Below are positions 6,693 through 32,360 of a stretch of DNA of 35,034 bases, in pieces. The position numbers were made by a program, and so were the translations under genes. The notes beneath the pieces were generated by a model. The model saw nothing but the letters and a program-made list of their open reading frames with translations. It ran no database searches and was not told the DNA's origin. The stretch's first letter is position 1, and each line of letters starts with the position of its first letter. This DNA comes from Clostridia bacterium (lineage in GTDB: Bacteria; Bacillota; Clostridia; Lachnospirales; Lachnospiraceae): positions 1-35,034 of the forward strand of contig QKDK01000020.1 in assembly GCA_003252135.1 (NCBI GenBank), written 5' to 3'.

Positions 6693-6711
6693 GTGATACA
6701 CCTCCTTCATT

Positions 6712-6744
6712 AAAAAACTGCCTCTTGCGAAGACAAAGAGGCAG
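6712..6744 (-). terminator. Attenuator hairpin in front of rplJ
   Basis: CTGCCTCTT and AAGAGGCAG (6718-6726 with 6736-6744) form a 9-bp stem. On the minus strand it is followed by TTTTTT, just before the rplJ ribosome binding site. It is the terminator half of the L10 leader: L10 (with L12) bound to the leader is expected to favour termination. Confidence 0.8.
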
Positions 6745-6849
6745 TGTAAGTATTCTTTCGATCTCAGATCATACATACTACATCCTCGGCAGGCGTTTAT
6801 CTTCTTACGCCGGAATATGTATTCCAGGCACCTGCTGTCTTCGGCAACA
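6745..6849 (-). promoter_or_regulatory. L10 (rplJ) ribosomal protein leader
   Basis: The rplJ leader RNA carries the landmarks of the L10 leader family: GCCGAAGACAGCAGGTGCC near its 5' end and CTGCCGAGGATG further on, matching the L10-binding kink-turn region known from Firmicutes leaders. It starts at the predicted promoter start (~6849) and runs into the attenuator hairpin. Recognition is by motif; a covariance search against the Rfam L10 leader model would settle it. Confidence 0.85.
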
Positions 6850-6855
6850 TTATTA

Positions 6856-6884
6856 TTTATAACATACTTTTATATATGTGTCAA
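6856..6884 (-). promoter_or_regulatory. Predicted sigma-A promoter of rplJL
   Basis: On the minus strand: TTGACA (6884-6879), 17-bp spacer, TATAAA (6861-6856). The start near 6849 coincides with the 5' end of the L10 leader, so rplJL can be transcribed independently of rplKA. Confidence 0.7.
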
Positions 6885-9386: not shown

Positions 9387-9510
9387 TTCAGACTTCCTAA
9401 CATGATGCCGTCATTTGGCATCACAAAAAATGAGTAAAGAACAAGATGTTCGAGCCCTCTGCGAGAATATCGTAGTTCTTTCAGGTGTGAAGATGCTTTT
9501 CTTCACACTT
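9387..9510 (+). repeat. Structured dispersed element, copy 1
   Basis: First of three copies of an element with no recognised family. It is bounded by TTCAGACTT (9387-9395) and TTCACACTT (9502-9510). Order inside: hairpin GATGCC/GGCATC with a 7-nt loop; a longer imperfect hairpin from AAGAAC to GTTCTT with an inner stem GATGTTC/GAATATC; and a terminal hairpin GTGTGAAG/CTTCACAC (9485-9492 with 9501-9508). It shares its right boundary with copy 2. The strand given is the one leading to the protease; the transcribed strand is not known. Confidence 0.85.
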
Positions 9511-9626
9511 CATAACATGATGCCGCCTTTTGGCATCACAAATAATGAGTAAAGAACAAGATGTTCGAGCCCTCTGCGAGAATATCGTAGTTCTTTCAGG
9601 TGTGAAGGGGTGTTTCCTTCACACTT
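9502..9626 (+). repeat. Structured dispersed element, copy 2
   Basis: Tandem to copy 1 with a period of about 115 bp, bounded by TTCACACTT at both ends (9502-9510, 9618-9626). Against copy 1 the changes I see fall in loops and linkers: the first loop is GCCTTTT instead of GTCATTT, and the terminal hairpin is GTGTGAAGG/CCTTCACAC with a different loop. The central region from GAACAAGATG to GTAGTTC is identical. Confidence 0.85.
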
Positions 9627-21582: not shown

Positions 21583-22245
21583 TTAGTTCATGTTCCTTAC
21601 TATATCTGCAGGACTGTCAGCCAGGTACGCAGGCTTAAGCCCTGCAAGACGTTCTTTTTCATTATATCCCCAGGTGACCAGCATGCAATCCATTCCTGCA
21701 TTTTGTGCAGTCTCAAAATCCACTTCAGAATCACCAATAAAAATGGTTTCTTCCCTGTTCCTGTTCAGTTTTCTTAATGCTTCCAGAACCAGATCAGGTG
21801 CTGGTTTTTTAGGCTTGTCTTCGCTGGCCCCGACTGCCACTGCTATATGTCCTCCCAGCAGATTTTCTGAAAGCTCCATTACTGCCTGTGCGTTTTTGTT
21901 CGAGACAATTCCCATGGTAAATCCTGCCTGGCTCAGCTGTTCCAGCATAGCTGGTATTCCCGGGAATGCACATGTCCTGTTTCTGCAGTTCTTTTGATAA
22001 TGAGAGGCAAAATAGTCATAGGCTTCTGCCAGATCGACATTTTTAACACCGCGTCCAAAAGCCCGCTCTAAAAGCTTCATTACACCGTTTCCCACAAATT
22101 TTTTTACTTCATCCTCTGAACGCTCCATATAGCCATAATGGTGAAGCGTTGTATTCACGCTGCCGGTAAGATCCGAAATCGTATCAAGCAGTGTTCCATC
22201 CATGTCAAAAAGTATTGTTGTATACTTGCCCATATATTGCCCCAT
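21583..22245 (-). CDS. HAD-superfamily hydrolase, phosphoglycolate phosphatase-like
   Basis: 220 aa. HAD motif I FDMDGTLLDT (nucleophile Asp14, acid Asp16), motif II near GIVSNKN, the conserved Lys in KPKKPAPDLV, and motif IV IFIGDSEVDFETAQNAG. A helical cap of type C1 lies at about residues 20-85 (FVGNGVMKLLERAFGRG), as in phosphoglycolate phosphatase and pyrophosphatase PpaX. The exact substrate cannot be read from the sequence. The ribosome site is weak for both candidate ATGs (22245 and 22233). It appears monocistronic. Confidence 0.88.
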   Translation of the reverse strand: MGQYMGKYTTILFDMDGTLLDTISDLTGSVNTTLHHYGYMERSEDEVKKFVGNGVMKLLERAFGRGVKNVDLAEAYDYFASHYQKNCRNRTCAFPGIPAMLEQLSQAGFTMGIVSNKNAQAVMELSENLLGGHIAVAVGASEDKPKKPAPDLVLEALRKLNRNREETIFIGDSEVDFETAQNAGMDCMLVTWGYNEKERLAGLKPAYLADSPADIVRNMN

Positions 22246-22335
22246 TCTTGCGCTGTTCTTTGCGCATTGTGAAAGAATTATCCGATTCCATCACAGTTTA
22301 CATTAATCCTTTGCATATCAGCCAGACACTATTTT

Positions 22336-31699: not shown

Positions 31700-31851
31700 T
31701 TCACACTTCATAACATGATGCCGTCATTTGGCATCACAAATAATAAGTAAGAACAAGATGTTCGAGCCCTCTGCGAGAATATCGTAGTTCTTTTACACGA
31801 AGATGGTTACATGCATGATTTACGCATGTTAACTTCGTGTTTTTCACACTT
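31700..31851 (+). repeat. Structured dispersed element, copy 3
   Basis: Third copy, about 22 kb from the tandem pair, bounded by TTCACACTT (31700-31708 and 31843-31851). The part up to GTAGTTC matches copies 1 and 2 except for two changes just after the first hairpin. The terminal hairpin is replaced by a longer unrelated one, ACACGAAG / CTTCGTGT (31795-31802 with 31833-31840) with an inner GTTACATGC stem, followed by TTTT. It lies in the 196-bp gap between the CAP gene and the exporter gene. Confidence 0.85.
31795..31844 (+). terminator. Terminator-like hairpin closing element copy 3
   Basis: An interrupted stem of about 17 bp followed by a T-run on the plus strand, the strand on which no protein gene is read. 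The minus strand has no U-tract after the hairpin. This suggests the element could be a plus-strand transcript. Confidence 0.5.
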
Positions 31852-32330: not shown

Positions 32331-32360
32331 TTCTATGCTCCATTCTGCGCTTTACGCATA

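Follow-up and report, generated by a model that had tools for sequence, protein, structure and literature searches.

REP/BIME elements, with their RAYT (Y1) transposases, are palindromic, intergenic repeats that form mosaics and occur in operons. Rickettsia palindromic elements are located inside coding frames and are tolerated as the host gene stays expressed. Correia/NEMIS, ERIC and RUP elements are short, non-autonomous and structured and can alter the expression of operon neighbours, and MITEs have terminal inverted repeats and target duplications (PMC3049150, PMC10969869); the Rickettsia elements are also named in the review (PMC10969869). The BOX elements of S. pneumoniae and S. suis, which are the closest known system to the repeats described here, are characterised as small interspersed repeats built from the hairpin modules boxA, boxB and boxC, whose number in tandem varies; they have terminal inverted repeats, and an IS partner has been proposed for them. 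They occur in clusters, some have ORFs, and the authors judged them likely parasitic (PMC3049150).

We describe two related repeats, ABC and E-D. Like REP/BIME, they are palindromic, intergenic, mosaic and found in operons, but their units are larger, E-D carries a Shine-Dalgarno (SD) sequence, and no Y1 gene was found in the draft genome of origin (hereafter the source genome). They would resemble the Rickettsia elements as palindromic repeats whose host gene stays expressed, although they lie between an SD and a start codon or past a stop codon rather than inside a coding frame. ABC and E-D share with Correia/NEMIS, ERIC and RUP that they are short, non-autonomous and structured; they also meet several criteria for MITEs (short, high copy number, base-paired, element-free sites in a congener), but no terminal inverted repeats were detected and target duplication is seen only weakly. 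With BOX they share a modular build of hairpins, a variable tandem number and an inferred parasitism, a likeness noted without any sequence comparison. In contrast to BOX, the ends of ABC are direct and not inverted repeats, inverted repeats were detected in neither ABC nor E-D, and E-D supplies an SD and ranges over many genera; the description of BOX consulted mentions neither a supplied SD nor a position between SD and start codon (PMC3049150).

The window, that is, the whole stretch of 35,034 nucleotides under analysis, carries ABC on the minus strand. The first-pass annotation, made from the letters alone, had proposed a three-copy structured element, with a tandem pair at 9387-9626 and a third copy at 31700-31851. 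This repeat is real: the two units at 9387-9626 form a 115-nt tandem repeat with 91% identity between them, and a covariance model (R1), built in part from the window's own copies, has exactly three matches in the window, at 111-122 bits. Three is thus the right number for the window but not a total, since the genome has many more. In minus-strand order, a copy consists of AAGTGTGAA, a variable hairpin C, a compound (two-layer) hairpin B, a linker, hairpin A and again AAGTGTGAA. Unit 1 (9387..9501, minus strand) comprises the boundary TTCAGACTT, hairpin A (9402..9423; GATGCC/GGCATC), compound hairpin B (9437..9481; outer stem AAGAAC/GTTCTT, inner stem GATGTTC/GAATATC) and hairpin C2 (9483..9510; GTGTGAAG/CTTCACAC), no strand being assigned to the single hairpins. 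Unit 2 (9502..9626, minus strand) lies in tandem to it, with TTCACACTT boundaries at 9502-9510 and 9618-9626 and a hairpin C2 at 9598..9626 (no strand assigned) that is terminator-like on the plus strand. The single copy at 31700..31851 (minus strand) has hairpin C1 (ACACGAAG/CTTCGTGT); its matched part starts 5 nt past the ThrE_2 gene and stops 42 nt before the CAP-domain gene.

The stems named by the first-pass annotation are present and fold as claimed. All ABC copies in the window fold better than shuffled sequences on both strands, the plus strand more strongly (z-scores of -6.4, -5.9 and -4.9 on the plus strand and of -2.9, -4.2 and -3.3 on the minus strand). The terminal hairpin had been taken for a single hairpin with variable letters; it is instead one of two different hairpins that substitute for each other, GTGTGAAG/CTTCACAC in copies 1 and 2 and ACACGAAG/CTTCGTGT in copy 3. 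A boundary sequence common to the copies does exist: the window contains four occurrences of TTCACACTT, all at element boundaries (0.57 expected; four also reached in 1 of 100 shuffles), and the fifth boundary reads TTCAGACTT. Each tandem copy also contains a promoter-like TTCACA-16-TATTCT (9/12) on the minus strand, at 9464-9491 and 9579-9606, and the plus strand of the tandem region has four terminator-like hairpins versus 0.2 in shuffles. The product of the minus-strand gene at this pair resembles ribosomal protein L33.

Beyond these claims, the first-pass annotation had left two possibilities, a structured RNA and a non-autonomous mobile element of no known family, to be followed up by a search for further copies, a covariance model, a covariation check and a comparison with Rfam. 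The search returned many dispersed copies in the source genome, a draft of 3.57 Mb in 399 contigs and 80% complete: at least 37 blastn matches to the window pair (40 of 50 candidates scored) and at least 46 to the C1-B-A consensus (40 of 52 candidates scored). These copies lie between genes and are spread over dozens of contigs. By blastn, the same consensus has five matches in the congener G001 and none in G002 or G003, and an exact 27-mer of B has no match in named genomes. The R1 covariance model, run on genomes of the family, found ABC in only 2 of 299, the source genome included (14 candidates scored per genome). The second, G027, belongs to another genus and its match is weak (E 3.7e-4); this homologue keeps the ABC plan (a C hairpin, outer B stem GAAGAAC/CTTCTTC, A stem GATGTC/GACATC and the tail GGAAGTGTGAA) and is divergent, with an inner B stem of different sequence. 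No Rfam family was matched at gathering scores by the window repeats or by 14 loci; at weak E-values the window repeats reached only Clostridiales-2, whose 13.8 bits fall far below its gathering score of 58.6, and four loci searched down to weak E-values gave no match. The sole Rfam match in the window is a ribosomal protein L10 leader (RF00557, 71.7 bits) at 6703-6862 on the minus strand. Literature searches without access to most subscription journals listed no paper on the ABC/E-D repeat family.

Inspection of the flanks identified what the first-pass annotation had missed, namely that ABC makes up only half of a mosaic, whose position is tied to stop codons, start codons and ribosome-binding sites. 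On the minus strand, a palindrome E (GTGAAAGAATT..AATTCTTTCAC) and an element D frequently come after ABC. D consists of a compound hairpin D1 (CAAGTTTG/CAAACTTG), a small hairpin D2 (TGCGC/GCGCA) and GGAATGAGG, behind which stands the ATG of a gene. E-D is a second repeat on the same plan as ABC, ending in an SD. The modules follow the order C-B-E-D in one direction, with parts missing or tandemly repeated. In the source genome, D has at least 44 blastn matches (40 of 70 candidates scored), and the D end AGCGCAGGAATGRGG, with at most one mismatch, occurs 72 times versus 0 for a reversed control pattern. The window itself holds an E-D2 leader of a HAD hydrolase gene (22231..22319, minus strand; model match E 4.5e-5), in which hairpin E is decayed and D1 lost, D2 reads TGCGC/GCGCA, and the SD-like GAATGGGG precedes an ATG at 22233-22231. 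A possible minimal D2 hairpin with SD (TGCGTAAAGCGCAGAATGGAG; 32331..32360, minus strand; weak, E 0.13) lies past an in-line TGA and ahead of the ThrE_2 ATG.

E-D is found well beyond the source genome. A D2-plus-SD pattern matched at least 111 stretches in named genomes, and the labels among the matches listed are mostly Lachnospiraceae, Roseburia, Lachnoclostridium, Acetatifactor and Eubacterium, with few others, e.g., Clostridiaceae and one Bacillus sp. MAG. Within the family, BLAST detected E-D in 10 of 299 genomes (3 candidates scored per genome) and the model in 42 of the 299 sampled, the source genome included, from 41 genera (12 candidates scored per genome). In a sample of 391 genomes of the class, with 9 candidates scored in each, E-D reached E 1e-5 only in the source genome, and at this stricter threshold E-D was seen in no sampled genome outside the family; as the class sample includes at least 15 others of the same family, the test is strict and not exhaustive. 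Several single loci depart from the standard build. At L126/L134 (G129:C3, about 679,860-680,144) there are four tandem E-D1 units with a 94-nt period and a variant tail CCGGCCTACTAAGAG.., and at L174, L187, L207 and L210 (JAJQDE) an unrelated hairpin AGAACCAAC..GTTGGTTCT stands in place of hairpin E, with part of it repeated three times at L187; L139 (G198) appears to be the same site as L210. From this replacement of hairpin E, hairpin cassettes seem to be exchangeable. By eye, L178 and L214 have added hairpins within hairpin E and between D1 and D2, and L193, L197 and L221 inside D1.

The position of E-D relative to genes was examined at 81 sites from 80 of the at least 111 listed stretches; 61 of the 81 sites satisfied a filter that asked for D1 and an unbroken sequence. 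Since the search pattern fixed only D2 and the SD, the presence of D1 and E at these sites is independent evidence. In these other genomes the ATG lies 2-9 nt downstream of the E-D end at 79 of the 81 sites, and exactly 6 nt downstream at 51. Pooling all loci, 147 copies were reduced to 73 with D1, to 60 with the E hairpin and to 48 that also have a start-like codon and an ATG nearby. An SD-like motif precedes hairpin E in 38 of these 48 (letter-shuffled mean 19.8, maximum 31), and in 34 of 41 when the two congeners are excluded; in the source genome, five of nine such copies come after another copy whose tail ends in an AATGAGG-like sequence, and this sequence then acts as the SD-like motif. 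In another genome, the identity among eight copies runs from 4 nt before the GTG, directly past the SD-like motif, as far as the second SD. Taken together, the SD-like motif ahead, the ATG behind and the limits of identity place E-D between an SD and a start codon.

The direction of the clusters follows that of the genes. In the source genome, 27 of 28 D-bearing clusters are co-directional with the called downstream gene (six more have no called gene), and ABC clusters without D are co-directional with the upstream gene in 16 of 20 cases and run against it in four. Of these four, three oppose both neighbours, and one of the three is the window pair; the gene caller used is crude and missed the minus-strand L33-like gene at 9387-9626, next to which the pair runs in the same direction. 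Clusters that begin with C start at most 26 nt from a same-strand stop codon in 14 of 19 cases. In addition, the frame that opens at the GTG/TTG of hairpin E stays open for at least 20 codons in 42 of 44 copies, versus 29% of shuffles (four of the 48 copies, without a start motif, were left out of this count). The upstream peptide and its reading frame vary between genomes, some frames run beyond the ATG, and in several genomes the frame stops 7-9 nt ahead of it. A conserved upstream peptide as the product of E-D was rejected because the frames vary by genome; translation of the upstream frame remains possible, with an unconserved product.

The covariation check succeeded for the companion E-D, and was uninformative for ABC itself, whose copies are too alike (two-sided changes at 1 of 18 pairs among the source genome's copies). 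For E-D, 65 sequences gave 82 cells with two-sided changes against 28.5 in shuffles, a value reached by none of 500 shuffles, and slid controls gave at most 41 cells. By pair count the signal is weaker, with two-sided changes at 10 of 27 pairs, as reached by 41 of 500 shuffles. Most of the covariation lies in hairpin E (7 of 11 pairs), and the lack of variation in D2 is in part an effect of the query, in which D2 was fixed. On the gene strand, G.U outnumbers A.C by 62 to 24 in E and D1 (0 versus 3 in D2), which favours gene-strand RNA as the selected form and hints at selection on RNA rather than pure parasitism. ABC gave no clear strand signal (32 G.U versus 27 A.C, 17 of the 27 from one pair).

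Evidence on mobility came from a comparison with the congener G001, of which about 1.6 Mb was read, with orthologues accepted at 55% identity or more. Fifteen of the 54 clusters of the source genome have a downstream orthologue in the G001 DNA read, and only one of these 15 has a BLAST-detectable element within 300 nt upstream; where both neighbours are syntenic, one of ten junctions has the element and nine have no detectable one. Three compact element-free junctions in G001 have gaps of 21, 13 and 18 nt (from the end of the upstream protein match to the ATG), against 216, 151 and 103 nt of element in the source genome. In the 103-nt case, G001 reads TAATAAATGGAGGAGCT-ATG and the source genome TAAATTTGGAA-element-TTAAAT-ATG. 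One "element-free" junction of G001 (C275) retains a bare CGCAGGAATGAGG tail, and the remaining syntenic gaps are longer and could not be aligned by eye. A separate comparison found two genes with D in both congeners, one of them outside the 54 clusters; adding it makes the count 2 of 16. The element-free sites were found between two species of one genus and not within a species, and they could in principle be precise losses instead of the pre-insertion state. An empty site for the third window copy was sought and rejected, as the CAP-domain relative in G001 (48% identity) sits in another neighbourhood. With dispersed copies, no Rfam family and element-free junctions in a congener, the initial description as a structured RNA or mobile non-autonomous element of unknown family is supported.

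Copies are also more alike within genomes (mean identity 0.895) than between them (0.719). After genomes with fewer than three copies were dropped (16 of 94 copies), a tree was made of the remaining 78 copies, which come from 11 genomes; it requires 17 changes of genome label versus a mean of 52.3 and a minimum of 46 when labels are shuffled; the copies group by genome and are homogenised within each genome. Evidence for target duplication is weak: the per-locus spacer match was 108 versus 94.5 shuffled (p 0.016), with genomes not controlled for. The ABC ends share a 9-nt direct repeat, and terminal inverted repeats were not found in the four copies tested, where the longest inverted match between the 25-nt ends was 5 nt in each; this was also reached by 82-164 of 500 shuffles and is thus no longer than chance. 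The analysis identified no mobilising enzyme and observed no insertion event.

Several of these results would also suit a cis-regulatory leader (riboswitch- or attenuator-like) of a regulon, whose hairpins would respond to a signal and regulate translation from the second SD: the covariation in E and D1, the G.U excess on the gene strand, the fixed distance to the ATG, the range of E-D over 41 genera, the long open frames behind hairpin E and the two leaders common to orthologues of both congeners. Compared with the structured RNAs of Rfam 15, the covarying stems of E-D beside an SD resemble the expression platforms of translational riboswitches, without a family match. Covarying structure, as required of a cis-regulatory RNA, is met by E-D; conservation on orthologous or related genes is not, with two exceptions. 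The 102 downstream proteins include no cross-genome pair at 40% identity over 60 residues (a few genes of the source genome being counted repeatedly, and the two congener-shared pairs lying outside the stricter set), and sampled products are as varied as OMP decarboxylase, WhiA, an ABC transporter, glycerate kinase and an epimerase. As leaders are mostly not kept on orthologues (1 of 15), copies group by genome and the peptide frame shifts between genomes, we regard this reading as unlikely. Translational coupling draws on the same upstream frames: translation would begin at the GTG/TTG behind the first SD, run along a short upstream ORF across the hairpins and stop near or over the second SD, where ribosomes re-initiate on the gene. 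The SD-like motif and GTG/TTG ahead of hairpin E, the open frames and the stops 7-9 nt before the ATG in several genomes agree with it, but the frame, stop position and peptide vary by genome, some frames overrun the ATG and some sites retain only D2 and the SD, so that we consider coupling improbable as the explanation. The upstream ORF may be no more than a side effect of an insertion downstream of an SD, and coupling is compatible with the best explanation given below.

Movement by a Y1 (RAYT or IS200/IS605) transposase, as for REP/BIME-type elements, would account for the hairpins, the absence of inverted terminal repeats, the direct repeats at the ABC ends and the mosaic arrangement. The Y1_Tnp domain (PF01797), however, has no match in the source genome draft (80% complete), and it is present in 6 and missing in 7 of 13 chosen element-rich genomes (four of these 7 drafts being 97-99% complete) versus present in 9 of 14 comparison genomes; in the comparison set, G017 has one E-D match, and G002, G019 and G153, with 6-9 E-D matches, were not among the 27 genomes. 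Without association across the 27 genomes, a Y1/RAYT mobiliser was rejected, and there is little chance that this explanation is right. A simple local duplication of ordinary intergenic sequence would explain why copies 1 and 2 are in tandem, but it is refuted by the copies on dozens of contigs and the related elements in other genera, and we give it practically no credence.

The few leaders shared by orthologues, the grouping of copies within genomes and the unrelated downstream proteins point to a spreading repeat more than to a regulon. We therefore conclude, with reasonable confidence, that ABC copies are small non-autonomous hairpin-rich mobile repeats which, with E-D, make up a mosaic family occupying the spaces from one gene to its neighbour. 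The homogenised dispersed copies, the element-free congener junctions, the gene-strand orientation of E-D, its SD and start-codon boundaries and its stem covariation are observed. How the family spreads is inferred: copies would move as DNA or RNA via an unidentified enzyme, and E-D would insert immediately downstream of a gene's native SD, after which its 3' end (AATGAGG plus about 6 nt) would turn into the working SD and the gene would stay translated. Lacking an SD, ABC would settle in the stretch from a stop codon to the SD that follows it, or in wider gaps. Once transcribed, the hairpins probably tune the stability or translation of the operon mRNA, an inferred RNA function for which no regulatory signal was seen.

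A more specific form of this proposal can be put forward only tentatively, and it may well prove wrong: E-D as a mobile ribosome-binding site, a selfish element aimed just 3' of an SD, which gives the gene a new SD while the old one starts the upstream frame, ABC being a relative that uses stop codons. Targeting would possibly occur by recognition of mRNA or of an SD-like sequence, and the spread would be within one bacterial family, Lachnospiraceae by the named records. With an E-D that brings its own ribosome-binding site, a genome could tolerate many insertions and its genes would not be silenced. If the explanation as mobile repeats is right, a spreading repeat has taken over the translation start signals of dozens of genes in some genomes of a major gut family, which would be a natural experiment on the tolerance of insertions in operons, a source of expression differences between strains and a handle on the unknown mobilising enzyme.

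The repeats also matter for gene callers, since AATGAGG contains an ATG that, at the most frequent spacing, shares its reading frame with the more probable start. In the window, the start of the HAD gene in the list of open reading frames is the ATG inside GAATGGGG (22245); the likelier ATG, at 22233, lies 12 nt further downstream in the same frame, and the same start-call trap recurs wherever the spacing is 6 nt.
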